NCBI GenBank assembly: GCA_026706025.1
Contig: JAPOZO010000021.1
Coordinates: 1-57,621, forward strand
Direction: 5' to 3'
DNA from: Candidatus Poribacteria bacterium
GTDB taxonomy: Bacteria > Poribacteria > WGA-4E > WGA-3G
Length of the DNA stretch: 57,621 nt
The notes beneath the pieces are model-generated. The model saw only the letters and a program-made list of their open reading frames with translations, searched no databases and was not told where the DNA came from. The translations under genes and the position numbers were made by a program. This document shows positions 2,159 through 24,359 of the stretch, in pieces. Position 1 is the first letter of the stretch. Each line of letters opens with the position of its first letter.

Positions 2159-3205
2159 ATGAAACTCAAAGAAATTTGTGAACACCTCAATGGAGATCTC
2201 TCTGGCGATGGTGAGATTGAAATTACAGGAGTTTCTGGAATCAAAGAGGCACTCCCGACTCAGATTACTTTTGTTGCCAATCCGAAGTATCTCGCCGCTA
2301 TAGCGACAACCCAAGCCGCTGCTATTATTATTGGGCACGGTGTATCCGGCAATGGAAAGCCGACGATCCGGGTAGATAATCCTTACTGGGCTTTCGTTAA
2401 AGTTTTGGAAATGTTCTCATGGGACAAAAACCCTCGCGCACTTCCAGGAGTTGATGAGACAGCAATTTTAGGTGAGAACGTCAAACTCGGTGAGCGCGTC
2501 TCAATTCAAGCGTTTACTTACATTGCTGACAATGTTGAGATCGGCGATGATACCGTCATTCAACCGTTCGTCTATATCGGCGAAGGCACTAAAATTGGGG
2601 CTGATGGGCTTATCTATCCGCACGTTAATATTCGAGAAGAGGTAACCATCGGCGATCGCGTGATTATCCATTGTGGGGCTGTTATCGGGAGTGACGGTTT
2701 TGGGTTCGCACCCGTCAGCAACCGACATCACAAAATTCCGCAGATTGGGACTGTCGTTATTGAAGATGATGTTGAAATTGGTGCCAATACTACCATTGAT
2801 AGAGCAACGCTTTCTGAAACGCTCATCAAACGTGGCACAAAGTTAGATAATCTTGTCCAAATCGCACACAACGTTGTGATCGGTGAGGACTGCTGTCTCG
2901 CCGCACAAGTTGGAATCGCGGGGAGTACAACGCTCGGAGACCGGGTCAATATCGCAGGACACGGCGGTGCTGCAGGACATCTGACGCTCGGGGATGATAG
3001 CGTCGTTTACGCGAAATCCGCAGTTACAAAGGATATGCCTGCCGGGAGCCATCTCTCTGGATTTCCAGCGCGACCCCATAAACAGGAATTACGAATTCAC
3101 GCCGCAACTCGAAAACTGCCAGACCTGCTCCCTGAATTCGCAAAACTCCAGAAACGCGTAGAAGAACTCGAAGCAAAAATTCAAGAATTGGAGGACGCAT
3201 CGTAG
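2159..3205 (+). CDS. lpxD: UDP-3-O-(3-hydroxyacyl)glucosamine N-acyltransferase LpxD
   Basis: 348 aa, the usual length. LpxD adds the second hydroxyacyl chain to UDP-glucosamine in lipid A synthesis, in the cytoplasm. The N-terminal uridine-binding domain (residues 1-95) includes the typical GVSGIKEA and TFVANPKY segments. Residues about 100-310 are a left-handed beta helix of hexapeptide repeats (VEIGDDTVIQPFVYIGEGTK and following). The HNVVIGEDCCLAAQVGIAG region carries the catalytic His of the family. A C-terminal helix rich in Lys and Glu ends the protein. It shows that the organism can make lipid A-type lipopolysaccharide, which matters given the archaeal-type lipid genes just downstream. 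Confidence 0.95.
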   Translation: MKLKEICEHLNGDLSGDGEIEITGVSGIKEALPTQITFVANPKYLAAIATTQAAAIIIGHGVSGNGKPTIRVDNPYWAFVKVLEMFSWDKNPRALPGVDETAILGENVKLGERVSIQAFTYIADNVEIGDDTVIQPFVYIGEGTKIGADGLIYPHVNIREEVTIGDRVIIHCGAVIGSDGFGFAPVSNRHHKIPQIGTVVIEDDVEIGANTTIDRATLSETLIKRGTKLDNLVQIAHNVVIGEDCCLAAQVGIAGSTTLGDRVNIAGHGGAAGHLTLGDDSVVYAKSAVTKDMPAGSHLSGFPARPHKQELRIHAATRKLPDLLPEFAKLQKRVEELEAKIQELEDAS

Positions 3206-3478: not shown

Positions 3479-4327
3479 ATGAAAACGCTGTTCGCGTATC
3501 TTGAACTGGCGCGTCCTCTTAACGGAATTATCGCTTTTATCTCCGCGTGGCTTGGCGGGATGTTCGCCAACCAAGGCACGATCGAAAATCTTGTTGACAT
3601 TCGGCTTTGGTTGGTTTCTATCGCCGCATTCGTCATGCTTTCGGCGGGAAACGCCATAAACGATTATTGCGATTATAAGATTGACCAAATTAATCGTCCA
3701 CGGCGACCACTACCTTCTGGACGCATTCGGCGCGTAGATGCCCTGATTTTCGCTATTATCCTTGTTATCATCGGCATCTATTTGGGAACGCTTATTAATA
3801 GAAACGCAACAGCGATTGCTATTCTCGTATTCGTCGCACTCGCAAGTTACGCGATTTGGCTGAAACGTATACCGTTTATCGGTAACTTAGTCGTCAGCGG
3901 TTTAACCGCTTTAACCTTTATCTCTGGTGGTGTCGCTATAGAATCAGGGCAAGGGACACTGATTCCAGCAATCTTTGCCTTTCTGTTCACAGCGGCCCGG
4001 GAAATCATCAAAGACCTTGAAGATACAGAAGGCGACTTGAAAAACAGTGTGAAAACACTCGCGATTCTCAACCCGAAACTCGCTGTAAAGACTGCTATCG
4101 GTTTCATGGTGTTGGTTATTCTATTCAGTCCGATCCCTTATCTATTTGGGGCGTACTCTTGGCATTATCTGTTGGTAGTTGTACTCGGAGTTGATTTAGT
4201 CCTTATCGGATTGGTAATTCGCTTATTGCGGGACGCTTCCAGAGAAAGTTGTGCCGCCATCCAACGCTGGATGAAGTGGGATATATTTGTCGGACTCGGC
4301 GCAATCTACCTCGGAACGTTTTTATGA
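3479..4327 (+). CDS. UbiA-family prenyltransferase, digeranylgeranylglyceryl-phosphate synthase-like
   Basis: 282 aa polytopic membrane protein with about eight hydrophobic segments. Two Asp-rich prenyl-diphosphate/Mg sites are present: NDYCDYKIDQINRPRRPLPS (about residues 60-80) and REIIKDLEDTEGD (about residues 164-176). The NRPxRPLPSG and REIIKDxED signatures are those of the DGGGP synthase branch of UbiA, which adds the second geranylgeranyl chain to geranylgeranylglyceryl phosphate. Other UbiA enzymes (menaquinone, heme O, chlorophyll) share the fold, so substrate is inferred. The inference is strengthened by a GGGP synthase family gene 1.4 kb downstream. The stop overlaps the next gene's ATG (ATGA at 4324-4327), implying translational coupling. 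Confidence 0.8.
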   Translation: MKTLFAYLELARPLNGIIAFISAWLGGMFANQGTIENLVDIRLWLVSIAAFVMLSAGNAINDYCDYKIDQINRPRRPLPSGRIRRVDALIFAIILVIIGIYLGTLINRNATAIAILVFVALASYAIWLKRIPFIGNLVVSGLTALTFISGGVAIESGQGTLIPAIFAFLFTAAREIIKDLEDTEGDLKNSVKTLAILNPKLAVKTAIGFMVLVILFSPIPYLFGAYSWHYLLVVVLGVDLVLIGLVIRLLRDASRESCAAIQRWMKWDIFVGLGAIYLGTFL

Positions 4328-5544
4328 TAAACTATGATAAAATCATCGCTTTCTTAGAAAGAGAAAACTCGGATGCTGAGGAAGTCTCTCGCTTTAAACA
4401 GGCGTACCATACCTTTTCTAAGACAGGTGAATGGCACCGTCCGTATCAGGTACTTACCGCAGGTTGGCAGAAACTTGATGGCGTTTTACTGATGACCCCA
4501 GAGGATGTCTTTGATGCCGATTATCGGGTCTACCTCACTGCTACAACCGAACGAAGTTTGAGAGAACTACTCTTGGCTTTTCCAAGACGATACACTGGAA
4601 TGTTCCACCCAACAGAAAAGTGGATGGACAACGGAATACACGATGTCTTAGAAGGTGAGTTTGTTCATACGGATGATGGCACATTTTATCAAGGTGTTAA
4701 ACGAGGGAGTGGGGCAGTCGTAGAACAACGGACGATCTCTAAACGCAAAGATGCAATTGCTGCGGATATGCGTAAATTAGCCACCTTGAAGGGGAAACTT
4801 GAGTCTTCGCAATTTGTTGTTGAAGGAGATCTGATGGTAGAACGAGCAGTTAAAGACGGTTTGCCTATCGAGAAAATCCTTTATACGACTGCCCTACTTG
4901 AAGCATCGGAAGGACAAAGCCTTTTAAAGAGCGCATCTGCCGATAATATTTCCTGCTATCAAGTTAACGATGGTGTGATGGGTTCAGTCACTACAACCCG
5001 TCCCGTGCCACCAGTTATCGCATCGGTATACTTTAACTTTCGGGACTTTTTGTCAGAATCAGGTAAATCTAATTTCCACTTTAATCCGGGATGCACAATG
5101 CTCATTGCGGAGAACATCGCGAACCCAGACAATTTAGGTATGACATTACGGACAGCAGATGCAGTCGGAGTGTCTGCTGTCTTGCTGAGTCGTATAGGCG
5201 CAAGCCCGTTCCATAAAAATTGTGTACGCGCGTCACGGGGCGCGGTTGGACGTTTGCCGTTGTACCATGCTACAGATATCGGTGCCGCGATTGAGACACT
5301 GCGTCTCTCCGGTTGGAATGTGTTAGGTGGAACATCTAATGCTGAGAAAGATCTCTACGCTATGAAGTTCTCACTACCTACCGCTATCGTTGTTGGCAAT
5401 GAAAATACAGGGGTGTCTATAGAAACGCGAGCATCTTGCACAGAACTCGTCCGTATTCCGATGGCATCTGGACAATCATCGCTCAATGTAGGGGTCGCAG
5501 CAGGTGTGCTTCTCTATGAGTTAGCGCGACAGCGTAGCATTTGA
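4324..5544 (+). CDS. TrmH/SpoU-family RNA 2'-O-methyltransferase with extra N-terminal domain
   Basis: 406 aa. Residues about 1-150 are an extension I do not recognise. Next comes a small SpoU substrate-binding domain (SQFVVEGDLMVERAVKDG, about 160-240). The C-terminal SPOUT knot domain (about 258-406) has the diagnostic NIANPDNLGMTLRTADAVG, the VVGNENTGVS loop and PMASGQSSLNVGVAAGVLLY, which bind SAM and RNA. It probably methylates a ribose in rRNA or tRNA; the target cannot be told. The start chosen is the ATG that overlaps the UbiA gene's stop. A longer reading from 4249 would run 79 bases into that gene. Typical TrmH-like proteins are 240-280 aa, so the 150-residue N-terminus is unusual. 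Confidence 0.87.
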   Translation: MINYDKIIAFLERENSDAEEVSRFKQAYHTFSKTGEWHRPYQVLTAGWQKLDGVLLMTPEDVFDADYRVYLTATTERSLRELLLAFPRRYTGMFHPTEKWMDNGIHDVLEGEFVHTDDGTFYQGVKRGSGAVVEQRTISKRKDAIAADMRKLATLKGKLESSQFVVEGDLMVERAVKDGLPIEKILYTTALLEASEGQSLLKSASADNISCYQVNDGVMGSVTTTRPVPPVIASVYFNFRDFLSESGKSNFHFNPGCTMLIAENIANPDNLGMTLRTADAVGVSAVLLSRIGASPFHKNCVRASRGAVGRLPLYHATDIGAAIETLRLSGWNVLGGTSNAEKDLYAMKFSLPTAIVVGNENTGVSIETRASCTELVRIPMASGQSSLNVGVAAGVLLYELARQRSI

Positions 5545-5569
5545 CAAATCGCCAAAAATATGGTACAAT
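5541..5569 (+). promoter_or_regulatory. Sigma-70 promoter for the GGGP synthase gene
   Basis: TTGACA (5541-5546), 17-nt spacer, TACAAT (5564-5569) with an extended -10 TGG just upstream. The -35 overlaps the stop codon of the methyltransferase gene. The predicted transcript start near 5577 gives a leader of about 200 nt that carries a MITE-like repeat before the TTG start. Confidence 0.75.
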
Positions 5570-5635
5570 TCTAAAAGAGTCGGCTGCGCGCAAACCCGTA
5601 AAAAAATACCAGTTTGCAAGCCAAAATTTAACGAT

Positions 5636-5761
5636 TGTGGTGAAGCCTATAAATAAGTGGACATCTTTGTAGCATAAACTGTTAGTTTGTGCCAGTCTGA
5701 ATGCCTGTTATAGGTATTCAGACTGTTTGAAAGTGCCCTATTAATTATAGGTTTTACTATA
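5636..5761 (+). repeat. MITE-A copy 1
   Basis: About 126 bp. The right end is GGTTTTACTATA; the left end is an imperfect inverted match best seen in the copy at 29391 (TATAGTGAAGCC). Inside is a strong hairpin: CAGTCTGAATGCC, loop TGTTATA, GGTATTCAGACTG. It also carries the 28-bp core beginning TTTGTAGCATAAACTG. The same element recurs at 12580-12676 (truncated) and 29391-29522. No coding capacity. Confidence 0.8.
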
Positions 5762-5776
5762 AATGAAAAGGACACA

Positions 5777-6529
5777 TTGCATTTGAGGTCAAATTGGGTT
5801 CTGGACCACTTTAACGAAGTACTGAAAAAGCATAACGCTGGCTATTTTGTTTTAATCGATCCGGAGCAGTGTGAGGTCGCTAAATGCGCTAAACTCGCAC
5901 GGGAGATTGAGAAGGCTGGCGCAGATGCAATTTTGTTAGGCGGCAGTTTTTTAACCAACGATTTGCATCCAATTGCGAAAGCACTTAAACAGGAGACAGA
6001 ACTCCCTGTTGTGCTTTTCCCCGGTGATTCAATGCACCTTACGCCGCATGCAGACGCGATTCTCTATATCAGCCTGATCAGTGGACGCAACCCTAACTAT
6101 CTCATTGGCGAACAAGTTAAGGCAGCACCGTGGATACTGCGCTATGCCCTTAAACCTATCCCGACCGGCTATATGCTTATTGAGAGTGGTAATCGAACCA
6201 CTGTTGAATTTATGAGCGGGACGGCACCTATTCCGCGTGATAAGCCAGATATCGCCGGACCGCATGCATTAGCTGCAGAATACCTCGGCATGCAGATGGT
6301 GTATTTAGAGGCTGGCAGCGGCGCAGCACATGCTGTGCCAGACGAGATGATCTCCGCAGTGAAAAACCAAATTAGTATCCCATTAATCGTTGGTGGCGGT
6401 ATCCGCACACCGAAAATCGCTGGAAAAAAAGTAGAGGCTGGTGCTGATTTCATCGTCACTGGCAATGTACTTGAAGAAAATGGTTCCTTTGAATTGATGA
6501 GAGATTTTGCCAACGCTGTTCACGGTTAG
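5777..6529 (+). CDS. Geranylgeranylglyceryl-phosphate synthase family protein (GGGPS)
   Basis: 250 aa TIM-barrel prenyltransferase of the PcrB/GGGPS family. It joins a polyprenyl diphosphate to sn-glycerol-1-phosphate, the first committed step of archaeal-type ether lipids. Family motifs: FVLIDPEQ near the N-terminus, GGSFLT, LFPGDSMHLTPHADAILY, SLISGRNPNYLIGEQVKAAP, YLEAGSGA (phosphate and prenyl site), VGGGIRTP and TGNVLEEN. The length matches the bacterial/archaeal group with about 250 residues rather than the 230-residue Bacillus PcrB. The start is TTG at 5777 with AAAAGGA upstream; TTG at 5783 is an alternative and no in-frame ATG precedes it. It sits near the DGGGP-synthase-like gene, so the two probably act in sequence. 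Chain length of the substrate cannot be read from sequence. Confidence 0.9.
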   Translation: MHLRSNWVLDHFNEVLKKHNAGYFVLIDPEQCEVAKCAKLAREIEKAGADAILLGGSFLTNDLHPIAKALKQETELPVVLFPGDSMHLTPHADAILYISLISGRNPNYLIGEQVKAAPWILRYALKPIPTGYMLIESGNRTTVEFMSGTAPIPRDKPDIAGPHALAAEYLGMQMVYLEAGSGAAHAVPDEMISAVKNQISIPLIVGGGIRTPKIAGKKVEAGADFIVTGNVLEENGSFELMRDFANAVHG

Positions 6530-6674: not shown

Positions 6675-7526
6675 ATGGCTGAAGTTAAAGAGATACACAT
6701 AAAGGCGGAAGTGGAAGAGGCTTCAGATAACGATTCCACCGACAATAAAGAGACTAAAGAAAAAACGCTTGTCACGCGCATGCGAGAAATCGCGGAGGTG
6801 GCTCTTGATACGATCAAGTCGGAAGTCAAACAAGAAATCGAAGAACGTATTTCTCCTGTTGAAGAGACTGCTACCAATCTTACATCGGAGGTAAAGAAAG
6901 AGGTAGAGGCAATTGTCCAACGCGTTCGGGATCAATACGAAACGGAGCGCGAAGAACTATTGCGTGCAGAAATTGATAAAGAGGTAGAAGCAGCCGTACA
7001 AGCAGTTCATGAAGAATACAAAGGCGAACGTGATCGGCTGCTACGGACAGCGGCAGAAGCTGAGAATACCAAAAAACGCTTACAAACCGATTATCAGCGG
7101 CAACTTAAGTTCGCGAACGAAGGGATACTTGAGGGGATGGTCCCGGTGTTGGATAGCTTGGATGCCGCAATTAAAAGCGTGACTGAGAAAGTTCAAGAAA
7201 ACACTGTCTCACCGGCGTTCACAACCTTTAATGAGGGGGTGCAACTGGTTCACAAACAGTTGCTGGATGCACTCAAAATCCACGGATTAGTGCCAATCGT
7301 AGCCGTTGGTGAAACATTTGATCCAAATCAGCACGAGGCACTCCTTGTTACCCCATCAGATGATGTGCCCGAGGGGAAAGTGATTGAAGAGTTCCGGGGC
7401 GGTTATATGTTACATACCCGTGTGCTACGCGCCTCACAAGTAGTCGTTTCACAGGGACCGGCTAAAGAAGAAGAAACATCGAACGAAACCGCGGACGATA
7501 CGCATGAAACTGACGCTGCCGAATAG
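6675..7526 (+). CDS. grpE: GrpE nucleotide exchange factor with long N-terminal coiled coil
   Basis: 283 aa against about 170-210 for typical GrpE. The conserved GrpE core lies in the last 165 residues: TKKRLQTDYQRQLKFANEGI helix, VPVLDSLDAAI, then the beta domain with GETFDPNQHEALL and the family's closing GYMLHTRVLRASQVVVS. GrpE releases ADP from DnaK in the chaperone cycle. Residues about 1-115 are a highly charged coiled coil containing a near repeat of 28 residues (KEVEAIVQRVRDQYETEREE at about 74, then KEVEAAVQAVHEEYKGERDR at about 102). The gene is 18 bases upstream of dnaJ, so the two are surely co-transcribed. DnaK itself is not in the window. Confidence 0.93.
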   Translation: MAEVKEIHIKAEVEEASDNDSTDNKETKEKTLVTRMREIAEVALDTIKSEVKQEIEERISPVEETATNLTSEVKKEVEAIVQRVRDQYETEREELLRAEIDKEVEAAVQAVHEEYKGERDRLLRTAAEAENTKKRLQTDYQRQLKFANEGILEGMVPVLDSLDAAIKSVTEKVQENTVSPAFTTFNEGVQLVHKQLLDALKIHGLVPIVAVGETFDPNQHEALLVTPSDDVPEGKVIEEFRGGYMLHTRVLRASQVVVSQGPAKEEETSNETADDTHETDAAE

Positions 7527-7544: not shown

Positions 7545-8666
7545 ATGATGCAAAAACGCGACTACTATGAGGTTTTGGATGTCAATCGAGATGCTGACGA
7601 GGACGACATAAAAAAGGCTTATCGTAAACTCGCCATCCAATTTCACCCAGATAAAAATCCTGACAACAAAGAAGCCGAAGATAAATTCAAGGAAGCAACA
7701 GAGGCTTATGAAGTCCTCCGTGATGCTGAGAAACGGCAGCAGTACGATAGATTCGGTCATGCTGGACTCGAAGGTATGGGAACCGATTTTGGTGGCGTCG
7801 GTGTGAATTTGGATGATATTTTCGGCGATGTTTTTGGCGACCTCTTCGGTGGACTCGGTGGCAGGCAACGCACCCCGAAACGTGGACGCAGTTTACAATA
7901 TAACCTTGGGGTAACACTCGAAGATGTCATTCATGGTAAGCAGGTCACGCTTCAGGTGCCACGTGTTGAAAACTGCACGGAGTGCGATGGCAGCGGGGCG
8001 AAGAAGGGAACACGAGCCATAACCTGTCCGCAATGCCACGGCAGAGGGCAAATCAGTCAATCGCAAGGCTTCTTTACTATGTCCCGTACCTGTTCACAGT
8101 GTCGTGGCGAAGGTGAAATCATTCAAGAACCCTGTCCAGCTTGCAGGGGGCAAGGACTTGTCCGAAATACGCGCGATATTAAACTCAATATTGACAAAGG
8201 GGTTGATAGCGGTTTTAAATACCAATTGCGCGGTGAAGGCGAGGTGGGTGCCAACGGCGCACCCCCCGGCGACCTATTTGTTGTCATCAACGTTGCTCCG
8301 CACGAACGCTTTGAACGCGACCGAAACGACCTCATTACATCCGCCAAAATTTCGTTCGTCCAAGCCACGCTCGGTGGGAAAATTGATGTTGAAGGTATTG
8401 ATGGACGCGAAGAGTTGCATATCCCACCGGGGACACAGTACGGGGCACAACTACGTATTCCCAACAAAGGCATCCCACATTATAAACGCTCCTATTCAGG
8501 TGATCTGGTGGTCGAAGTAGAAATTGAAACCCCAAAAAATCTCAACAGTGAGCAGCGTAGGAAGTTAGAAGAATTTGCGAAGTTACGCGGTGAATCCTTT
8601 CAGCACGAACACGGTGGATTTTGGGATAAACTGCTTGGGCGTCATGAAGACGAAGAACCCGAATAG
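7545..8666 (+). CDS. dnaJ: Chaperone DnaJ
   Basis: 373 aa, full length. The N-terminal J domain has the HPD motif (FHPDKNPDN, about residues 34-42) that triggers DnaK ATPase. A Gly-rich linker with [13 protein letters not shown] follows. Four CxxCxGxG zinc motifs come next ([32 protein letters not shown]), then the C-terminal client-binding domains. This is a type I (class A) DnaJ. Two adjacent ATGs (7545 and 7548) are possible starts. It follows grpE and precedes prmA, the same order as in many heat-shock operons. Confidence 0.97.
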
Positions 8667-12580: not shown

Positions 12581-12676
12581 TTTGTAGCATAAACTGTTAG
12601 TTTGTGCCAGTCTGAATGCCTGTTATAGGGATTCAGACTGTTTGAGAGTGCTCAATTAATTATAGGTTTTACTATA
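12580..12676 (+). repeat. MITE-A copy 2, left end missing
   Basis: Matches MITE-A from the TTTGTAGCATAAACTG core to the right end GGTTTTACTATA, including the CAGTCTGAAT hairpin. The left end has been replaced by the REP-like unit. With MITE-B just after it, the 318-bp gap 12535-12852 is almost all repeats. Confidence 0.75.
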
Positions 12677-14093: not shown

Positions 14094-14246
14094 AACCCAA
14101 GTTGCCACTTTGTAGCATAGGCTGTTAGCCTGTGGCTCTTTGCGCCGAAAATGGTAGGAAACACGCCAAGTTTTCGCAAAAATGACCGCTTTTCACTGAA
14201 AAACGGTGTGCGTGCGTCTAAAATCATAAAGGTAGCAAGTTGGGTT
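14094..14246 (+). repeat. MITE-B copy 2, in the helicase leader
   Basis: 153 bp with ends AACCCAAGTTGCCAC and GTAGCAAGTTGGGTT (inverted, two mismatches). Ends 36 bases before the helicase start codon and lies downstream of its predicted promoter, so it should be transcribed as part of the leader. Confidence 0.8.
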
Positions 14247-14282: not shown

Positions 14283-17200
14283 ATGTCAAATAAAAACGCA
14301 TCCCTTAAATCTGGTATCCGGGACAACCTCAGCCGAGGAAAAGTCTACGAGTTTTTAGAGCAAGAAATCAAAAACGGCTCAGCACTCTCCATTGTATCCG
14401 CATACTTTACTATCAACGCCTTTGAAGCACTCCAGAAACCATTAAACGAGATAAAAGAACTCCGTTTTTTGTTCGGTGATCCGGATTTCATCAAAAGCCT
14501 TGATCCCACCAACACTGAGAAAAAAGCCTTTAGTATTACGGATACAGGTTTAGAACTTCATAAACAACTTCAGCAGAAACCGATTGCCAAAGCTTGCGCC
14601 GAATGGATAAAAGAAAAGGTTGAAATCCGTTCAACACGAAAATCAAATCTCCTGCACGGGAAAATGTATCATATCGCCAACGACGGTGTTGAAAAGGCGA
14701 TTATGGGCAGCTCCAATTTTACAATGCGCGGCTTAGGCTTGATTCATGAGAGCAGCAACATTGAACTCAACCTTGAGGTGGATAGCGACCGAGATCGCCG
14801 TGACCTGAAAGCGTGGTTCGACGAAATTTGGGATAACGATAAACTCGTTGAAGATGTCAAGAAAAAAGTGATTGCCAAGTTAGAACAGATAGGGAAAGAT
14901 CACGCACCGGAACTCATCTATTACAAAACCCTCTACGAACTCTTCCGGGACGAGATCGAAACCCGAAAAACCAACGACCAAACCCTTGAAGATACACATC
15001 TGTATGATACTAAAGTCTGGGAAACGCTGTACGAATTTCAGAAAGAGGGCGTAAAAAGCGTAATCGCACGTCTGTTGCGTCACAACGGCTGCATCTTGGC
15101 AGACAGTGTGGGGTTAGGAAAAACCTACACAGCACTGGCAGTGATAAAATTCTTTGAGTTACGAAACCAACGTGTCCTTGTGCTATGTCCGAAAAAACTG
15201 CATGGCAATTGGTCACTCTACCCCGTCTACAACTCGCAAGACACCAATCCCTTCCTCGATGACAAGTTCGGTTATACGCTGCTATCGCATACCGACCTTT
15301 CCCGCTACACCGGCGAATCTAACAGTATTAATTTGGAAAATTTCAACTGGCATAATTTTGACCTGATTGTGATTGACGAATCCCACAACTTCCGAAATGA
15401 TACAAAACCCGTCCGTGACTCAGACGGTAAATTTATCCGACACAGTCGCTACACACGGCTCTTGGAAGAAGTTATCAAGGAAGGCACGAAAACAAAAGTG
15501 TTGATGCTGTCAGCGACACCCGTGAATACATCACTCATTGACCTCCGCAACCAAATCTATCTTATGACTGAAAAGCGTGAGGATATCTTCAGCGATAGTC
15601 TCGGGATCAGTAATATTGGTTCACTGCTGCGCCAAGCGCAAAAAGAATTCAAGAAATGGGAAGAAGATAGCGGCGAGAACGGTCAAAGAGAGAAAACGAA
15701 GTTGCTGGAGGCACTCGGTGCCGATTTCTTTCAACTGCTTGGTGGTGTCTCTATTGCTCGCTCCCGACGGCATATTAAGACATTCTACGCTGAAGAGATG
15801 ACACGCATCGGCGAGTTTCCGACACCACAGAAACCCGAAAATTGCCATCCTCCAACAGATTTGACGGGTGAACTCTCCTATAAGGCACTGGCAGACCAGA
15901 TCGGTGAATTCGAGTTAGCCATCTATAGACCTTCCAGTTACGTCATCAGTGAGGCAGCAAAACAGCGACTCGCAAACGAAAAGCAGAGATTCCGTTTCAA
16001 CCAAGCAGACCGTGAACGATTCCTTATCGGCATGATGCAGACCAATTTTCTGAAACGTCTCGAGAGTTCCGCTCACTCACTGTCGGAAACACTTCAACGC
16101 ACCATCGGCAAAATCGACGATATGCTGGAGAAGATTCACCGATACCAACAAAACCCGAATATGCAGAACGCACAAGCCGATGTTTTGCCCGACGACGATG
16201 AAGACGATGAAGAGTTTTTGATCAACCGAGCGCGCAACCCCTATCACCTCCGCGAATTGGATTGTACCCGCTGGAAGAATGACCTTATCAAGGACAAAGA
16301 GACCTTAACCGCTGCATCGGATAACGTTAAAGCTATCACACCGGAAAGGGACGGTAAACTCAAGGCAATTAAAGCACATATTCAGAAGAAGGTACAAAAC
16401 CCCACAACCGACAAAGACGGAAAAATTAATCGCAAGCTGCTGGTTTTCACAACCTTCAAAGATACGGCAGTCTATCTCTATGAAAAACTATCAGACCTTG
16501 CCGATGAATTAAAACTGAACATGGCAATGGTTTCCGGGGACCTGACACAAACCGCCTGTGGACAAAATAACTTCAACGTCATCTTAAACAATTTCGCACC
16601 AAAAGCACGGACTAATATAGATAACGCATCTGACGAAATAGACTTACTCATTGCCACGGACTGCATCTCAGAAGGGCAAAATCTCCAGGATTGTGATACC
16701 ATGCTGAACTATGATATCCACTGGAACCCCGTCCGTATCATCCAACGCTTTGGTCGTATCGACCGAATCGGCAGCCGCAATGCTACAATAAAGATGATTA
16801 ACTACTGGCCCACCGAAGATATGGAAGTCTATCTCCGTTTACAAAGTCGCGTCGCATCCCGTATGGCACTCGCCGATGCAGCCGCAAGCGGCGATGACGA
16901 TCCGTTGAATGAATTCACCTATGAACAGGCACAGATGGAACTCAATTTTCGGGACGCGCAATTGGAGCAGCTTCGCCAAGATGTCCTGGACCTCGACGAC
17001 CTCTCTGATGGTATTGTCATCAGCGACTTTACACTTGATTATTTCTTTGCGCAATTGCTAAAGTATCTCGAAAGAAAAAGAGATGAATTAGAAGCCACAC
17101 CGAAAGGCGCGTATGCCGTCACCTTCAACGAAAACAATCCCACAGAAACCGGTGTCATCTTCTTTCTCCGACAACGCAACATCATCACAGATAAGGAGAA

Positions 17201-17576
17201 AAAGACACCGAGTCCTGTCTATCCATATTACACAGTCTACATCCGCAAAAATGGCGACATCCGTTATGGCTGTGCAAACACCAAACAGGTGTTAGATCTG
17301 TTTGAAGCGTCCGCTATTGGCAAGGACGATGTGTTGTCAGAATTCTGCCTCCAATTCGATCAAGAAACCCAACACGGTGAGAACATGGAAGATTACAACA
17401 AACTCCTGAACGCCGTCATTGCGCACGTCACACGGTCGCATCAAAAGACGCAGGCTAAAAATTTGGGCAGAAGCGGCACGCGCGGTTTCAAACTACCAGC
17501 CGCATCCGAAGCTCCCAGAGACTCCAGCGATTTTGAACTCGTTACATGGCTAATCATCACAACAAGGACTATTTAG
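14283..17576 (+). CDS. PLD-nuclease / SNF2-type helicase fusion, probable restriction component
   Basis: 1097 aa. An N-terminal phospholipase-D-like domain (about 1-190) has one HKD-type motif: HGK at 125, Asp at 134, GSSN at 142-145, as in PLD nucleases that act as dimers. A superfamily 2 helicase of SNF2/HepA type follows: Walker A DSVGLGKT near 274, DESH at 365-368, SATP near 410, and QRFGRIDRIGS near 821. Between the two helicase lobes is a long insert with an acidic run (DDDEDDEEF). The domain order suggests an ATP-driven DNA translocase carrying its own nuclease. Its neighbours, an HTH gene and an Eco57I-type methylase, suggest a restriction-modification or phage-defence role. It does not match the gene set of DISARM (no DrmA/DrmB nearby). 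Family calls are firm; the system role is inferred. Confidence 0.85.
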   Translation: MSNKNASLKSGIRDNLSRGKVYEFLEQEIKNGSALSIVSAYFTINAFEALQKPLNEIKELRFLFGDPDFIKSLDPTNTEKKAFSITDTGLELHKQLQQKPIAKACAEWIKEKVEIRSTRKSNLLHGKMYHIANDGVEKAIMGSSNFTMRGLGLIHESSNIELNLEVDSDRDRRDLKAWFDEIWDNDKLVEDVKKKVIAKLEQIGKDHAPELIYYKTLYELFRDEIETRKTNDQTLEDTHLYDTKVWETLYEFQKEGVKSVIARLLRHNGCILADSVGLGKTYTALAVIKFFELRNQRVLVLCPKKLHGNWSLYPVYNSQDTNPFLDDKFGYTLLSHTDLSRYTGESNSINLENFNWHNFDLIVIDESHNFRNDTKPVRDSDGKFIRHSRYTRLLEEVIKEGTKTKVLMLSATPVNTSLIDLRNQIYLMTEKREDIFSDSLGISNIGSLLRQAQKEFKKWEEDSGENGQREKTKLLEALGADFFQLLGGVSIARSRRHIKTFYAEEMTRIGEFPTPQKPENCHPPTDLTGELSYKALADQIGEFELAIYRPSSYVISEAAKQRLANEKQRFRFNQADRERFLIGMMQTNFLKRLESSAHSLSETLQRTIGKIDDMLEKIHRYQQNPNMQNAQADVLPDDDEDDEEFLINRARNPYHLRELDCTRWKNDLIKDKETLTAASDNVKAITPERDGKLKAIKAHIQKKVQNPTTDKDGKINRKLLVFTTFKDTAVYLYEKLSDLADELKLNMAMVSGDLTQTACGQNNFNVILNNFAPKARTNIDNASDEIDLLIATDCISEGQNLQDCDTMLNYDIHWNPVRIIQRFGRIDRIGSRNATIKMINYWPTEDMEVYLRLQSRVASRMALADAAASGDDDPLNEFTYEQAQMELNFRDAQLEQLRQDVLDLDDLSDGIVISDFTLDYFFAQLLKYLERKRDELEATPKGAYAVTFNENNPTETGVIFFLRQRNIITDKEKKTPSPVYPYYTVYIRKNGDIRYGCANTKQVLDLFEASAIGKDDVLSEFCLQFDQETQHGENMEDYNKLLNAVIAHVTRSHQKTQAKNLGRSGTRGFKLPAASEAPRDSSDFELVTWLIITTRTI

Positions 17577-17614
17577 TTTTAAAAATTCACCTTATATGTG
17601 TCTATATTTTCTTC

Positions 17615-17642
17615 TGTAGGAGCGAGCTGCGCTCGCGATCTT
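17615..17642 (+). repeat. REP-like palindrome, best copy
   Basis: TGTAGGAGCGAGCTGCGCTC then GCGATCTT. The stem GCGAGC/GCTCGC is nearly perfect. It lies 38 bases after the helicase stop and could act as a transcription-stopping or mRNA-end hairpin. Confidence 0.75.
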
Positions 17643-17724
17643 GCGTCGAAAGGTTAACATCTGTCAACCAAAACCAATATCCGAGCCGAAAACTAAATCG
17701 CCCTGTCATCACAACACGACAATC

Positions 17725-17754
17725 TTGACTTTTTATCTTGAGGCATGGTATCAT
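17725..17754 (+). promoter_or_regulatory. Promoter of the small HTH gene
   Basis: TTGACT (17725-17730), 18-nt spacer, TATCAT (17749-17754), preceded by the extended -10 TGG. The ATG is 23 bases further on, with AGAGAGG as ribosome site. Confidence 0.65.
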
Positions 17755-17777
17755 ATTTCAAAAGAGAGGCATAAACA

Positions 17778-18161
17778 ATGAAAATTTATGGAACATGGCA
17801 TGCATTCCTTGTAGAACAACTTAAAGAACAGGATGATGTGAGCGGTTATCTCGATGCAGTCATAGAAGAATATCAGGCCCACGAGAATCTCGCCATAATT
17901 CAGTTGGCACTTCAGTATGTCGTTGAAGCACAGGGCGGAATTTCTGAACTCGTTAAGAAAATAGACATTGAACCACGCCTCCTATCGGAAGTGTTAGATA
18001 GCACGAGAACACCAAAGATTGACACACTTAGAACCGTACTCAGTGCTTTGGGATGCCATCCTTCACTTGCGTCTTTAGAAACTGTCCCGATTACAGTCGC
18101 AACTGACGGATCTGCAGATGCCCCCTTAGATGCCGTAAACCCAAATCATAACCTTGATTAA
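17778..18161 (+). CDS. HTH regulator, addiction-module antidote (HigA/HI1420)-like
   Basis: 127 aa. Residues about 20-95 match the 'putative addiction module antidote' family: a YLDAVIEEYQ helix, a run resembling LALQYVVEAQGGISELVKKI, then the HTH with LLSEVLDSTRTPKIDTLRTV and the closing LSALGCHP. The last 30 residues are low-complexity. Such proteins are usually paired with a RelE-like toxin upstream; none is present here. It lies between the helicase and methylase genes with its own promoter and a terminator after it. It could be a controller protein for the restriction system, or the leftover of a toxin-antitoxin pair. Confidence 0.75.
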   Translation: MKIYGTWHAFLVEQLKEQDDVSGYLDAVIEEYQAHENLAIIQLALQYVVEAQGGISELVKKIDIEPRLLSEVLDSTRTPKIDTLRTVLSALGCHPSLASLETVPITVATDGSADAPLDAVNPNHNLD

Positions 18162-18249
18162 CATCACGTTTCAAGACAGAAAGGAGGGGTACGCGTGAAT
18201 AGGGCAGCGCGAATCGTTAGAACCTATCTCTAAACAATTAAAAATAACA

Positions 18250-18278
18250 GGGGTTGGCACACTGCCACCCCATTTTTT
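18250..18278 (+). terminator. Rho-independent terminator after the HTH gene
   Basis: GGGG(T)TGGCA, loop CAC, TGCCACCCC, then ATTTTTT. It is only 17 bases before the methylase start, so it either separates the HTH transcript from the methylase or attenuates read-through into it. Confidence 0.8.
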
Positions 18279-18294
18279 GTAGGAATACAGCATA

Positions 18295-21200
18295 ATGAAC
18301 AAGGAAGCAATCAAATCTGCGCTCGCAGCAATGTCAACCGGCGATCTTTTAGAAAAATCAAAAGAACTCTTGGCAACAATAGGCTACCGAAGCGAACGCA
18401 CGCTTGAACTCTCCGGCACCGTCCACGACTTTCTTGAAGAATTCCCATCGCTGAACCCGAACACCAGAACCGAACAAGAATTCCGCAAAAACGCCGAATC
18501 CGTGCAAATCGTGTTCCAGTTTACAAGCCACGAAATCGCGGATGACATTCAGCAGACACTTTTCGAGTCAGATGGTTTCGACAAGGGAAATACAGACAGC
18601 TTCCTTTTCTCTGCAGTCGAACTAAAAAACAACAACTATTCCCGAACCAAATACGCCGAATTCACACGAGAAATCAACAAGAGACTGGGCGCGCCGACTG
18701 TCGGACTATTCCGCGTTGCCAACCGTCTAACTATAGGGTTTACCGATCGCCGTCCCCACAAAACTGAAGGGGATCGTGATGTTTTAGGACAGGTTACACT
18801 CATCAAGGACATTCGCTTGGATAATCCCCACCGCGCACATCTTGACATTCTGTCTGAACTCTCATTTGAAGATCGCGTAAACTATATGGATGCCAACAAA
18901 AAAACGAAAAACTTCGACGGTCTACTATCAGCGTGGCTCGCCAAACTGGACACCGAGGAACTCAACAAACAGTTCTATAAAAAACTGTTCGCGTGGTATG
19001 AATGGGCAATAGAGACAGCAATGTTCCCAACAGACGAAAACCGCACTTTACAACCGGAAGAGCATGTCATACGCTTAATCACGCGTCTACTCTTTATCTG
19101 GTTTATCAAGGAAAATGGACTGGTAGCAGATGAATTGTTCAACAAAGCACAAATCCAAGACCTATTGGCAGAGAATGATTTCGACAACGGTGATGCCTAC
19201 TATCGCGCCGTGTTACAAAACCTCTTTTTCGCCACGCTGAACACCGAAATAGACAAGCGAAAGTTCAGCACCGTTGGCTACGCCACAAATCGGGATTTCT
19301 CACGCTATCGCTATAAAGATCAGATGCGCGACCCCGATAAACTGTTAGAGATTTTCGGCAAAACACCCTTCATCAACGGCGGACTGTTCGATTGCTTGGA
19401 TAGCTGGGAAGCGACGGGCAAAGAGAGTTATCGGATAGATTGTTTCTCCGATAATCAGTACCACAAGTTATCCATCCCCAACCACCTCTTTTTTGACACA
19501 CAACAAGGACTCATCCCCCTACTTGAACACTACAAATTCACCGTCGAGGAAAACACACCGATAGAGCAAGAAGTGGCGTTGGACCCCGAACTGCTCGGCA
19601 GAGTGTTTGAAAATCTACTCGCCGCCTATAACCCTGAAACCGGTGCGACGGTGCGAAAACAGACAGGCTCCTACTATACCCCACGCGCTATCGTTGACTA
19701 CATGGTAGAAGAAGCCTTAGTCGCCACGTTATCCCAGAAATGCGACCCAACCGATGACGACACCAAACTGTGGGATGAACGCTTACACTATCTCCTCGAC
19801 TATGCCCAAGCCTTCGACGATGCCAACGAATGGTTTGACGATGCCGAGACAGATGGCATCGTCCGAGCAATTTCTGAACTGAAAATACTGGATCCGGCAG
19901 TAGGTTCCGGCGCATTCCCGATGGGGATGCTCCACAAACTCACGCTTGCACTCCGGCGACTTGATCCAGATAACACCCGATGGGAACAATTACAGAAGGA
20001 ACGCGCCGTCCAACGCACAGAAATCGCCTTTGATACACAAGACGACGAAGCACGCCGTGAAGAACTCGTTGAAATTGACGAAACTTTCAAGCGTTACCGA
20101 GATTCAGACTTCGGGCGCAAGTTATACCTCATCCAAAACAGCATCTTCGGTGTAGACATCCAACCCGTAGCATGCCAGATCGCCAAACTCCGCTTTTTCA
20201 TATCCCTCGCAATTGAGCAGGAACCCGAGCAGAACGCAGAGAATTTCGGTATTAAACCCTTACCGAATTTAGAGACGCGTTTTGTCGCAGCGGATACACT
20301 GATAGGCATAGATTTATCCGAAACAAGGGGATTGTTCCAAGATGATACCGTACAGCAATTGCTAAAAGAGATTGACGGAATTCGTGAAAAGTTTTTTCTT
20401 GCAAATAATCGAACACAAAAACGTAAACTTGAAGAGCAGGAGGAGAAGTGCCGCAAACAATTGGAGAAAGAATTGGAGCGGCAGCGAACAGAATGGATAG
20501 AGAGCCGACAACGAGAAATAGATCAAAAAGTGAACCAACTTCCCACCGCTGAACTGCGTGAACAGTTGCGGGAAAAGGAACAGAAAACCTTTAAAACGCG
20601 TAAGCAGGAATTTGATGCCGAATTTGAAAATGCTCGCAAAATTGTTCGCTGGAAACCATACGACCAGAATGCAAAGACAGATTGGTTTGAACCGGAGCGG
20701 ATGTTTGGCATCAGGGACGGGGTTGATCTGGTACTTGGAAATCCGCCTTATGTCCAATTGCAAAAAGAGAATGGGAGACTTGGAAATCTTTATCAAGACG
20801 CAGGTTTTGAAACCTTTGTCCGCACCGGCGATATTTACTGTTTGTTCTATGAAAAAGCGAACCAACTTTTGAAAAACAATGGACATGCCTGTTTGATTAC
20901 TTCCAACAAATGGATGCGCGCTGGCTACGGTAAAAAGTTGAGAGATTTCTTTGTAACCCTTACCCAACCGATTCAACTGCTGGATATGGGACCAGACGTG
21001 TTTGATGCTACTGTGGATACAAATATCTTGCTGTTCCAAAAAACTGTATCCAATGCTCCTACTGCTTTTGTAGGCGTATCTCTCGGAGCAGATTTTGACA
21101 GACAGACCGACAACATCGCCCGATATTTGAGTGATAATGGCGCAAGTATAGAAATGCCCGCTAAAGGTGAACCGTGGGCGATACTCTCATCTGCTGAACT

Positions 21201-22014
21201 TAACCTGAAACGCAAAATAGAGGATGTCAGCAAACCGCTTAAAGACTGGAATATAAACATCTATCGTGGAATCATAACAGGTTGTAACGAAGCGTTCATC
21301 ATAGACGAAGCAAAACGTGAAGAACTTATAGATCAAGATCCAAAGTCAGCAGAAATCATAAAACCACTTCTGCGTGGACGTGATATTAACCGCTACCATG
21401 CCAAGCAAGCAGGATTATACGTGCTTGCAACTGGTTATGATCTGGATATTCCAAGAAGATATCCAGCAATCTACAAACACCTTGAGACTATAGGGGAACA
21501 GATAGAATTGGGAGAAATAACAGTGAGAGGTAAAGGACTTTTCCATAGAGACGATCAAGGTGAAAATTGGTGGAATCTCAGGGCTTGTGCTTACTACTCC
21601 GAATTTGACAAGAATAAAATCGTATATCCTGATATTTACCGACACCAAAGTTTCACTATAGATACCTCTGCTTCTTACTGTAGTAATACCTGTTATTTTA
21701 TACCTACAGAGGAAACTTGGTTATGCGGTTTGCTCAATTCCAAATCTGTAGAGTGGTATTATTCACGGTTGGCGAACACATTGGGAAGTGGAACTTCTCG
21801 TGGATTCAGTATCTTTATGAAGCAAATCTGTGTTCCTAACATTAACCCCGCTCAAAAAGCCCTTATTACCGATTTTGTCAATAATATCATTGCAACAAAA
21901 GCCGAAAACCCAGACGCTGACACCACAGACTTGGAAAATGAGATTGATAAACTGGTCTATGAATTGTATAATTTAACGGAAGATGAGATTGCGATTGTGG
22001 AGGGGAGTGTCTGA
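18295..22014 (+). CDS. Eco57I-type DNA adenine methylase, probable type II restriction-modification protein
   Basis: 1239 aa. The N-terminal 200 or so residues include VELKNNNYSRTKYAEFTREI, which may be a nuclease-like fold but is not clearly assigned. The SAM-binding motif DPAVGSGAFPMG starts at 533, followed by IFGVDIQPVACQIAKLRFF. The catalytic NPPY of N6-adenine methylases is at 816-819 (LVLGNPPYVQLQ). A charged coiled coil (about 690-780) interrupts the methylase domain. The C-terminal third has a TaqI-type specificity domain (GIITGCNEAFIID, IKPLLRGRDINRY). It should methylate a DNA target to protect self DNA; the target sequence cannot be predicted. The ATG is 17 bases after a terminator and no clear promoter of its own is seen between. 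Confidence 0.9.
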   Translation: MNKEAIKSALAAMSTGDLLEKSKELLATIGYRSERTLELSGTVHDFLEEFPSLNPNTRTEQEFRKNAESVQIVFQFTSHEIADDIQQTLFESDGFDKGNTDSFLFSAVELKNNNYSRTKYAEFTREINKRLGAPTVGLFRVANRLTIGFTDRRPHKTEGDRDVLGQVTLIKDIRLDNPHRAHLDILSELSFEDRVNYMDANKKTKNFDGLLSAWLAKLDTEELNKQFYKKLFAWYEWAIETAMFPTDENRTLQPEEHVIRLITRLLFIWFIKENGLVADELFNKAQIQDLLAENDFDNGDAYYRAVLQNLFFATLNTEIDKRKFSTVGYATNRDFSRYRYKDQMRDPDKLLEIFGKTPFINGGLFDCLDSWEATGKESYRIDCFSDNQYHKLSIPNHLFFDTQQGLIPLLEHYKFTVEENTPIEQEVALDPELLGRVFENLLAAYNPETGATVRKQTGSYYTPRAIVDYMVEEALVATLSQKCDPTDDDTKLWDERLHYLLDYAQAFDDANEWFDDAETDGIVRAISELKILDPAVGSGAFPMGMLHKLTLALRRLDPDNTRWEQLQKERAVQRTEIAFDTQDDEARREELVEIDETFKRYRDSDFGRKLYLIQNSIFGVDIQPVACQIAKLRFFISLAIEQEPEQNAENFGIKPLPNLETRFVAADTLIGIDLSETRGLFQDDTVQQLLKEIDGIREKFFLANNRTQKRKLEEQEEKCRKQLEKELERQRTEWIESRQREIDQKVNQLPTAELREQLREKEQKTFKTRKQEFDAEFENARKIVRWKPYDQNAKTDWFEPERMFGIRDGVDLVLGNPPYVQLQKENGRLGNLYQDAGFETFVRTGDIYCLFYEKANQLLKNNGHACLITSNKWMRAGYGKKLRDFFVTLTQPIQLLDMGPDVFDATVDTNILLFQKTVSNAPTAFVGVSLGADFDRQTDNIARYLSDNGASIEMPAKGEPWAILSSAELNLKRKIEDVSKPLKDWNINIYRGIITGCNEAFIIDEAKREELIDQDPKSAEIIKPLLRGRDINRYHAKQAGLYVLATGYDLDIPRRYPAIYKHLETIGEQIELGEITVRGKGLFHRDDQGENWWNLRACAYYSEFDKNKIVYPDIYRHQSFTIDTSASYCSNTCYFIPTEETWLCGLLNSKSVEWYYSRLANTLGSGTSRGFSIFMKQICVPNINPAQKALITDFVNNIIATKAENPDADTTDLENEIDKLVYELYNLTEDEIAIVEGSV

Positions 22015-22367
22015 ATCGCGGATTTTTGGATATGTTCCCTCCCCTAACTAACTTTCAACTCTGACAAATACTCTCCCATTGACTTCTCCTATTTATAATT
22101 ACCTTGCCAGTTTGGCAGAGTAAGTCAAATTGGCAGAGGAAAAGGTGAATAAAACCCTTTAAATACCTGTTTTTGAGTAGTTTCTATTGGCACGAAAATT
22201 GCTTTGTTGTCTATGTGTACTACTCGTGAAATTTAGTTTTGCGAAAAGCAATGCAAATTTGCCACCTATAGTTTTAAATTTGTTGACTGTCTTAGGTAAT
22301 TGTCCGCTTTTCGTAGGAAAGTAGAAATGAGATTATTGGAGAAATATTGATACGGAGGGACTCTAAA
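22015..22367. other. Gene-free stretch before the TIR operon
   Basis: 353 bp. I see no coding frame, no clear terminator hairpin and no strong promoter. A short direct repeat (TTGGCAGAG) occurs twice near 22114-22140. The region is A+T-rich toward the TIR gene, where the promoter should lie. Confidence 0.5.
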
Positions 22368-23033
22368 ATGGCTAGAAAAATTTTTGTTTCCTATAAACAT
22401 TCTGATGATAGCGTTGAAAACCTTAACGGTGAAACAACTGCCCGTGCTTACGTTGATGAACTAATTGAACTATTTGAAGATGATGAAATCTATAAAGGGG
22501 AAGGTGATGAAGATTTAAGTGAATTCAAAGATGAAACGATTGAAACACATCTGAAAGATAAAATATACGATAGTAGTTTAACGCTTGTCCTAATTTCACC
22601 AAATATGAAAGACGAATCTGAAAATGAGTCTGACCAATGGATTCCTTGGGAAATATCATATTCTTTGAAAGAAATCACACGGAATGATCGGACAAGCCAA
22701 ACCAATGGTATGTTAGCAGTCGTCTTACCGGACGAAGATTCATCATATAGTTATTTTCTTGAAGATGACACATGCTCTGCCTGCAATTGCAGAATCCTAC
22801 ACACGAGTACACTGTTTCAGATACTACGCGATAATATGTTTAATATCAAGGAACCAACATATAGTGATTGCCCTAAACATCTACCCCAGACTGTATACGA
22901 AGGTCATTCTTCTTATATTTATTCAGTTAAATGGTGCGATTTTATCGGGGATACGGATAAATACCTTGATACAGCGGAAGAAATAAGAGATAACAAAGAT
23001 GATTATGACATCACAAAAATAGTGAAAGATTAA
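22368..23033 (+). CDS. TIR-like domain protein 1 (Thoeris ThsB/DUF1863-type)
   Basis: 221 aa. It starts with [12 protein letters not shown], the first strand and BB-loop region of TIR folds. A long acidic stretch follows, then [13 protein letters not shown] and [13 protein letters not shown]. The WIPWE segment (residues 91-95) supplies the W-x-x-x-E glutamate that corresponds to the catalytic Glu of TIR NADases. Bacterial TIR proteins of this type make or cleave NAD-derived signals in anti-phage immunity. Residues about 130-221 hold two Cys pairs (CSACNC) and no domain I recognise. The ATG at 22368 has GGAGGGA 8 bases upstream. First gene of a three-gene set; spacing to the next is 44 bases. 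Activity is inferred. Confidence 0.8.
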
Positions 23034-23077
23034 GCTATAATCGGATATACCTGCCCTTGACGAAGGACGGTAAATTG

Positions 23078-23494
23078 ATGAATAACGCGGAGAGAATCGC
23101 GAAGCATTTGGAAATGACCCAGTCTGTTATAGACCGTATCGGAAGGAACAGTTTTCAGTTAAAAGGCTGGAGTATGACAATCCTTGTTGCAGCAAAGGTT
23201 CTAATTACGAGAACTGATCTACCAAGTCCATTTTTGATCCTAGCACTTATTTTTCCCATCATAGGATTTTGGTTACTTGATGGATACTTTATCAGACAGG
23301 AGCGGTTGCTTCGACACATATATGATGAGGTCAGAAATCAATCTGATACTAACTTTGAGATGGATATTAACAAGCACACGAACAAATCGAACTGTAGGTG
23401 GAGATCCATTTTTTCTTCAATTGTACTTGGTATTTTTTATGGTGTAGAGGCAATCTTTACCATTGTTGTATTTATAATAACTTATTTCTGTTAA
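23078..23494 (+). CDS. Three-TM membrane protein between two TIR genes (candidate effector)
   Basis: 138 aa. After a helical N-terminus (AERIAKHLEMTQSVIDRIGR) come hydrophobic segments at about 30-45 and 53-70, then a charged region (DGYFIRQERLLRHIYDEVRN). A third membrane segment closes the protein (SSIVLGIFYGVEAIFTIVVF). I recognise the GWSMTIL ... GFWLLDGYFIRQERL pattern as a small membrane family often found beside TIR-like genes, without a defined function. Its layout resembles 2TM/3TM effectors of nucleotide-signal immune systems. The ATG at 23078 has AAGGA 10 bases upstream. It lies 14 bases before the second TIR gene, so they form an operon. Confidence 0.8.
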   Translation: MNNAERIAKHLEMTQSVIDRIGRNSFQLKGWSMTILVAAKVLITRTDLPSPFLILALIFPIIGFWLLDGYFIRQERLLRHIYDEVRNQSDTNFEMDINKHTNKSNCRWRSIFSSIVLGIFYGVEAIFTIVVFIITYFC

Positions 23495-23508
23495 ATTTTG
23501 GAGGTAGT

Positions 23509-24000: not shown

Positions 24001-24019
24001 CACATCCCGCTGTTTTTAA

Positions 24020-24260
24020 TCCGCGTCCTCCGTGTCCTCCGCGAAAATCCGCGATTCAGACGAACCCACAATGCAGCCCTCCAATGCTTATTCCGTTCAA
24101 GCCGCGTAATCAACCATTGATCTTGTTTCGTGAAAGTAAATTTTGGATGCACAAAGAACAAAATCCGCGTCATCCGCGATTCAGAAAAGGCGCAACGAAT
24201 TGCGCAACTACAAACAGAAACACTCTTAAAATCCGCGTAATCTATTCAGTCCGTGGTAAT
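24020..24260 (+). repeat. ATCCGCG-type dispersed repeats
   Basis: Several copies of AATCCGCGTCCTCCGTGTCC, AATCCGCGATTCAGA and variants (about 24020, 24166, 24228). The same units occur at 26461 and 27461 after the TPR genes. They fill most of the 359-bp gap 24001-24359. Confidence 0.7.
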
Positions 24261-24283
24261 CTGCGATTCGTATAAAATAGCAA

Positions 24284-24312
24284 TTGACAAACACACCCCT
24301 AAATTGTATAAT
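24284..24312 (+). promoter_or_regulatory. Perfect consensus sigma-70 promoter of the FRG gene
   Basis: TTGACA (24284-24289), 17-nt spacer, TATAAT (24307-24312). The transcript should start near 24319, leaving about 40 nt before the ATG at 24360. It separates the FRG-TPR genes from the TIR operon. Confidence 0.9.
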
Positions 24313-24359
24313 CTGATTAAGGATTGTGGTTGAAGGAACATAGAATCAAGAAATATCGC

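Follow-up and report, generated by a model that had tools for sequence, protein, structure and literature searches.

Does a bacterium with an outer membrane carry the core of the archaeal route to ether-linked membrane lipids? The question is raised by contig JAPOZO010000021.1 of Candidatus Poribacteria bacterium (assembly GCA_026706025.1), of which we analysed a stretch of 57,621 nucleotides (positions 1 to 57,621, forward strand; the window). A first-pass annotation had placed a gene for a geranylgeranylglyceryl phosphate synthase (GGGPS) and one for a UbiA protein with the signatures of a digeranylgeranylglyceryl phosphate synthase (DGGGPS) within 3 kb, directly after bamA-skp-lpxD. This description holds, i.e., open reading frames, profiles, structures and residues agree. 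We consider it likely that the locus represents the core of an ether-lipid pathway of archaeal type that Poribacteria inherited; it would provide diether phospholipids of the archaeol type in addition to bacterial lipids and lipid A.

In such a pathway, GGGPS would join geranylgeranyl diphosphate (GGPP) and a glycerol phosphate, i.e., preferably glycerol 1-phosphate (G1P) or else glycerol 3-phosphate (G3P), to geranylgeranylglyceryl phosphate (GGGP). The UbiA protein would then add a second geranylgeranyl chain, again from GGPP, yielding digeranylgeranylglyceryl phosphate (DGGGP). CDP activation by the CDP-diglyceride synthase CdsA and bacterial head-group enzymes would complete the phospholipid, while a geranylgeranyl reductase (GGR) would saturate the chains in those poribacteria that keep one; in the window's species they are probably unsaturated, or reduced by an unrecognised enzyme. 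In the membrane, the product may be a minor or mixed constituent alongside fatty-acyl lipids and lipid A. A precedent is given by the Cloacimonetes homologues, which gave archaetidylglycerol in Escherichia coli (PMC7852524).

The two prenyltransferases

The GGGPS protein matches the PcrB family (PF01884, E=3e-45) and scores above the curated cut-offs of both TIGR01769 ('phosphoglycerol geranylgeranyltransferase', 226.7 bits, cut-off 161.6) and NF003198 (290.8 bits, cut-off 247). Its nearest solved structure is the archaeal enzyme of Methanothermobacter (MtGGGPS, 4mm1, E=4e-55), and its closest named relatives, 95% identical, are from Candidatus Poribacteria. Catalysis by GGGPS depends on two Tyr and one Glu, and the phosphate site of group II carries a Thr replacing Asn (PMC9385802). 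By alignment, the window's protein has Tyr132, Tyr176, Glu178 and Thr228. Across 14 poribacterial GGGPS, the two Tyr and the Glu do not vary, and Thr228 is found in at least 90% (residues were assigned by alignment, and the MtGGGPS numbering of PMC9385802 disagrees with the 4mm1 chain index). The first-pass annotation had named a loss of residues for chain length or G1P binding as evidence against its reading; the catalytic Tyr/Tyr/Glu at the G1P site are kept and the group-II Thr is present. At the chain-length position we find Leu88, compared to Val86 in the Mt and Ile90 in the Fj enzyme. The limiter of group-II enzymes is poorly defined (PMC9385802); Leu88 is compatible with a C20 chain, short of proof. 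The aromatic anchor (Trp141 in Mt) is a Phe here (Phe145), which suggests a hexamer.

The UbiA protein matches PF01040 (E=6e-43), has the DGGGPS of Methanocaldococcus (MjDGGGPS, 6m31, E=4e-38) as its nearest structure and keeps all six MjDGGGPS residues, i.e., N62/D66/D70 and D180/D183/D187. Both proteins thus share with their archaeal counterparts the catalytic Tyr/Tyr/Glu, the two Asp-rich motifs and a near full-length match, and differ from them in the bacterial host, in Leu88 for Val86 and in a moderate overall similarity. The best NCBIfam model for the UbiA protein is PRK12884 with 221 bits, under its strict cut-off; the DGGGPS models PRK12882 and PRK12883 yield 205 bits (cut-off 296) and 175 bits (cut-off 353). 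As these equivalog cut-offs are not reached, we call the protein a probable DGGGPS and do not certify its membership. In a UbiA tree, the outgroups sit on very long branches, such that we draw nothing from it on the placement relative to archaeal DGGGPS.

Could the UbiA protein be a prenyltransferase of quinone, heme or chlorophyll type, located near GGGPS by chance? These enzymes belong to the same superfamily, and the quinone-type paralogue of the genome (L008) has most of the Asp motif residues. However, the genome encodes separate proteins of MqnP/UbiA type (L008) and heme O synthase type (L009, above cut-off). Models of other named functions (e.g., EboC, ChlG) reach at most 81 bits on the window's protein and stay at least 120 bits lower. 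At the position of Mj D180, the genome's other UbiA proteins, L008 and L009 among them, have a Thr or Ala instead of the Asp, as does a second UbiA-like protein found in deep relatives. Given also the co-occurrence with GGGPS described below, we regard such a role as very improbable; the first-pass annotation had raised action on a quinone as a counter-scenario. The paralogue L011 (G000:C43:17265-17960) deviates in motif 1, with a His for the second residue (Mj D66), and adjoins a sulfatase-like gene.

Inheritance and gene order

We surveyed 85 Poribacteria genomes, scoring only strong matches as positive. A full-scale GGGPS match is found in 73 and the UbiA protein in 74 of them; 72 genomes have both, one only GGGPS, two only UbiA and ten neither (Fisher 2e-10). 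In several genomes of one genus (e.g., G031, G040, G041, G044, G047), both genes are kept though they are unlinked, i.e., on different contigs or far apart, such that linkage alone is insufficient to explain the association. Within a single genus, five genomes (G018-G022) are without GGGPS, DGGGPS-like UbiA and GGR, while their sister G023 has all three, i.e., the cassette was jointly lost (or gained).

In a GGGPS tree built by a quick method, the poribacterial sequences form one group (SH-aLRT 83), which fits vertical descent. We conclude that the GGGPS-UbiA pair is ancestral in the phylum and inherited throughout it. The poribacterial group joins sequences from KSB1, Marinimicrobia, Zixibacteria and others. 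The first-pass annotation had pointed to homologues in FCB-group bacteria; the host itself belongs to no classical FCB phylum.

The locus in the window is composed as follows (all on the + strand):

1-1326, +, bamA, C-terminal part, cut by the contig start (PF01103, PF07244)
1515-2078, +, skp/OmpH (PF03938)
2159-3205, +, lpxD, lipid A biosynthesis (TIGR01853, 374 bits, above cut-off)
3479-4327, +, UbiA-family prenyltransferase, probable DGGGPS, 282 aa (PF01040; 6m31; motif residues; REIIKDLEDTEGD motif)
4324-5544, +, SpoU-family RNA 2'-O-methyltransferase (PF00588, E=6e-34)
5541-5569, +, strong sigma-70-like promoter, TTGACA-17-TACAAT with TG before the -10 box (11/12 consensus matches)
5667-5693, +, copy of a 27-base repeated element upstream of GGGPS, hairpin-capable (repeat count and fold)
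5777-6529, +, GGGPS, group II, 250 aa, TTG start (TIGR01769; catalytic residues)
6675-7526, +, grpE, conserved downstream neighbour (PF01025; synteny)
7545-8666, +, dnaJ (read from the sequence; synteny)

The UbiA and GGGPS genes are 1.4 kb apart. Between them lies the SpoU gene, which starts with an ATG at 4324 and shares 4 bases (ATGA) with the UbiA stop. This gene is retained at its place in most relatives; we consider its product a housekeeping neighbour outside the lipid pathway. Downstream of GGGPS, prmA is found together with grpE and dnaJ. The presence of bamA and lpxD implies an outer-membraned cell. The promoter at 5541-5569 could drive GGGPS transcription alone; it is a consensus match only, and the number of such sites is not above that of shuffled sequence.

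For the synteny comparison, we used 56 poribacterial loci, including flanks of up to 10 kb. The common order is bamA-skp-lpxD-UbiA-SpoU-(GGR)-GGGPS-grpE-dnaJ, with UbiA in 47 of the 56 loci; 4 of the remaining 9 end at a contig edge upstream. The gene pair is no binning artefact, since the same order recurs in dozens of independent poribacterial assemblies, single-contig chromosomes included. We also compared 24 loci from KSB1, Marinimicrobia, Zixibacteria, TA06, Calditrichota and others; the stretches examined contain no UbiA gene of the window's type, and in one of these loci (TA06, L117) a GGR gene adjoins GGGPS. In the deep poribacterial families (L097, L098, L101-L106, L114), a homologue of the DGGGP-lipid reductase, i.e., GGR, lies directly upstream of GGGPS. 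In some deep loci, a further UbiA-like gene follows lpxD and precedes the DGGGPS-like one (L098:5053-6042, L102:6733-7650, L114:5907-6869); it is divergent, and we found no close named family for it.

These patterns bear on two further explanations. First, the cell may make a monoether only, i.e., GGGP would be dephosphorylated or modified similar to the heptaprenylglyceryl lipids of Bacillus, while the UbiA protein prenylates another substrate. Bacilli do so with a group-I PcrB (PMC9179154, PMC9385802); in addition, UbiA enzymes are functionally diverse, with the window's protein under the equivalog cut-offs, and GGR is missing from this genome. The joint retention and loss of both genes even if unlinked, the DGGGPS-type Asp (Mj D180) and the GGR gene between UbiA and GGGPS in deep families argue for a second prenylation instead and render the monoether unlikely. 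Second, the enzymes may run in reverse and degrade archaeal lipids taken from the surroundings. A degradation role is raised as a possibility for FCB bacteria without a G1P dehydrogenase (G1PDH) in PMC6431249, and many poribacteria are without a convincing G1P source. Nevertheless, the genes are fixed in a cell-envelope/chaperone block and not in a catabolic cluster, and the clustered reductase of the deep families fits synthesis, so we give this explanation hardly any credence.

The synthetic reading has its closest parallel in the Cloacimonetes (FCB group, Black Sea; Villanueva et al., PMC7852524), where GGGPS and DGGGPS are likewise co-localised in an uncultured bacterium without CarS, with CdsA as the assumed substitute. 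Poribacteria are a different phylum with a different neighbourhood (bamA-skp-lpxD ... grpE-dnaJ). Furthermore, the Cloacimonetes metagenome-assembled genomes have GGR and are without egsA/araM, while an EgsA-like gene is present and GGR missing here; the deep poribacterial relatives in turn carry GGR inside the cluster, in one order as a probable selenoprotein. Co-localisation in bacteria seemed restricted to Cloacimonetes (PMC7852524), such that Poribacteria are the second bacterial case. With the FCB-wide homologues of Coleman et al. (PMC6431249), the window shares the bacterial group-II GGGPS clade with KSB1, Marinimicrobia, Zixibacteria and others; Poribacteria are not among the FCB phyla listed in that study, whose consulted passages describe no conserved gene linkage. 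Archaeal lipid genes in bacteria and the 'lipid divide' idea are thus already published (PMC7852524, PMC6431249). The locus is a further example of this kind in FCB-like bacteria; what is new is the linkage in Poribacteria and, as the surprising part, the conserved cassette with its probable selenocysteine reductase.

Mixed archaeal/bacterial membranes bear on the divergence of the two membrane types, and a pathway that is linked and vertically maintained throughout a second phylum of bacteria extends the evidence past Cloacimonetes. Poribacteria, being sponge-associated and represented by complete chromosomes, are organisms in which to seek such lipids.

Glycerol phosphate source and remaining steps

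We sought the other pathway genes in the host genome by targeted searches. GGPP could be supplied by two polyprenyl synthases. L232 has a Trp at the fifth position before an uninterrupted DDxxD (DDIED), which is the pattern of archaeal type-I GGPP synthases (PMC9385802), whereas L231 has an Ala at this position.

Regarding G1P, the genome encodes one EgsA-like protein (L002) as G1PDH candidate. It reaches 136.5 bits with the G1PDH model (cut-off 413) and 71 bits with glycerol dehydrogenase. In alignments with solved G1PDHs, an Asp and two His of L002 fall on the metal-site motifs; we take these residues to be zinc ligands. The gene lies between a dipeptidase-like and an unknown gene (by reading). 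Within the 85 genomes, an EgsA-like gene is missing from 37 that bear GGGPS and found in two without it, such that a coupling to GGGPS is unsupported (p=0.06). Other candidates were rejected: L003, L005 and L006 are ordinary iron alcohol dehydrogenases, while L004 and L007 are AroB-like and PurE-like, respectively (by reading).

The pathway may alternatively use G3P, i.e., archaeal-type chains would be built on a bacterial backbone, which is a variant of the proposed pathway and compatible with it. The Cloacimonetes GGGPS takes G3P in vitro (PMC7852524), and no coupled G1PDH is found here. On the other hand, G1P is strongly selected in E. coli in vivo, even in the absence of a known G1PDH (PMC7852524). 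The catalytic residues of the G1P site are intact in the window's GGGPS, and L002 aligns with the Asp/His/His motifs. We therefore consider a G3P backbone possible, if rather doubtful.

For the later steps, we found no CDP-archaeol synthase (CarS) in the genome but only L012, which is of CdsA type and was rejected as CarS; bacterial CdsA is able to substitute for CarS (PMC7852524). No GGR of the poribacterial type is found in the window's genome at E<=1e-25. The best TIGR02032 match (L044, under cut-off) is without the PVRCAEG motif and resembles flavin halogenases (by reading). Across the survey, the co-occurrence of GGGPS and GGR is not significant (p=0.10), since most of the window's family lost GGR.

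Several of these observations weigh against a diether pathway in the window's species. The sole G1PDH candidate is divergent and uncoupled to GGGPS, such that the G1P supply is unproven, as in Cloacimonetes; a recognisable GGR is absent from the genome; and CdsA and the head-group enzymes are assumed to act on ether substrates. Concerning the enzymes, the UbiA protein is under the NCBIfam DGGGPS equivalog cut-offs, even though DGGGPS models are its best named-function matches, and a single deletion can remove neighbouring genes jointly. The direct evidence examined for acyl-lipid chemistry is lpxD only (plsX/Y/C and gpsA were not searched for), and the literature yielded no lipid data for any poribacterium. 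The genome search proposed by the first-pass annotation thus gave a divergent EgsA-like protein far under cut-off for G1PDH and nothing recognisable for GGR. Its suggestion of archaeal-like ether lipids together with lipid A gains from the residues, the co-inheritance, the GGR of deep relatives and lpxD/bamA, and is held back by the unsettled G1P source and the missing GGR. Family membership, catalytic residues, co-inheritance and co-localisation are read directly from the sequences; from homology, residues and context we infer the reactions and, with them, products, stereochemistry and cell location.

A geranylgeranyl reductase gene with in-frame UGA

The GGR query has matches in 25 genomes of the phylum. 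The best structural match of the poribacterial protein is the DGGGP-lipid reductase of Thermoplasma acidophilum (3oz2, E=6e-84), which aligns over its full length including the Cys45 motif PVRCGEG. However, 14 full-length genes from eight genera (L142, L143, L145-L148, L150-L157; e.g., L114:8920, L098:8882, L097:7940) are open save one in-frame TGA; the copy of G070 also has a TAG. In a fifteenth, split gene the TGA lies inside the N-terminal piece. In 14/14 full-length genes, the TGA is residue X of PVRXAEG/A, which is Cys in those TGA-free homologues whose site was read. It aligns with Cys45 of the T. acidophilum enzyme and corresponds to Cys47 of the Sulfolobus acidocaldarius GGR, a residue behind the flavin that is essential for catalysis (PMC10821996, PMC6309074). 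The same TGA is present in named records, e.g., JAPPIK010000008.1, JAJDTR010000073.1, JAPPKS010000027.1, PAQF01000002.1, DTUY01000324.1 and JADFGN010000039.1.

Sequencing error and pseudogenes were rejected as explanations in view of the recurrence of the codon in 14 genomes (8 genera) and of the dN/dS ratio (nonsynonymous to synonymous substitution rates), which is about 0.02-0.05 on both sides of the TGA (four pairs). Thus, both parts of the protein appear translated and needed; the FAD-binding GxGxxG lies before the TGA. Downstream, we observe a hairpin resembling a selenocysteine insertion sequence (SECIS), with a 7-bp stem and a 3-base loop at bases 17-33 counted from the T of the TGA. 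Pairing holds in 96.7% of cells, and 12 cells are changed on both sides with the pair kept. The covariation of 0.478 compares to at most 0.205 for slid versions and is reached by 0/500 shuffles. The SECIS-like call is based on fold and covariation. Cys homologues fold less consistently at this site, with two retaining a partial hairpin.

The decoding machinery is in accordance with this picture. Strong matches of tRNA-Sec and SelA are found phylum-wide; both (at least 70 bits and more than 480 bits, respectively) are present in 12 of the 14 UGA genomes and one of them in each of the other two. G004 and G005 lack a full SelA match, and their GGR has Cys. All UGA genes come from four families and eight genera of the order that includes the window's species, while the readable Cys genes are outside of this order. 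Within the window's genus, a UGA GGR is kept in G064:C1, G065:C67 and G070:C136, where it shares the contig with selA at a distance of about 12-16 kb, in contrast to the lpxD-grpE location in deep families.

GGR with UGA is therefore a probable selenoprotein of a previously unlisted family. It has no mention in the text of a 2026 prokaryotic selenoprotein inventory, is absent from the deep-Sep paper (PMC12013277), and full-text searches of the open-access literature returned no report. Taking cassette and reductase together, we lean towards the view that Poribacteria inherit a complete diether-lipid cassette (DGGGPS-GGR-GGGPS) in an outer-membrane block, in one order of which GGR is a selenoprotein with Sec at the flavin-facing catalytic Cys. 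If true, this adds a new selenoprotein family, links selenium to ether-lipid saturation and allows to probe why selenium would be employed by a lipid-saturating flavoenzyme. As annotation pipelines end such genes at UGA, a missing 'GGR' of other bacteria merits a search with UGA read-through.

Beside the lipid genes, the window shows further features. The hairpin-forming 27-base element TTGTAGCATAAACTGTTAGTTTGTGCC has five copies (5667-5693, 12582-12608, 14110-14136, 38460-38486, 42410-42436), all on the + strand, with 0 expected. It is present in some other poribacterial loci, too; neither the element nor the window as a whole has an Rfam match. A defence island (14283-25133) comprises an HKD+Snf2 helicase, a type IIG restriction-methyltransferase, two different ThsB-like TIR proteins and an FRG-domain PDC-S15-like protein. 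Elsewhere in the same genome, L043:3515-4600 and L135:716-1741 have an RRXRR/RuvC look of IscB or IsrB type (by reading), each upstream of unrelated genes.

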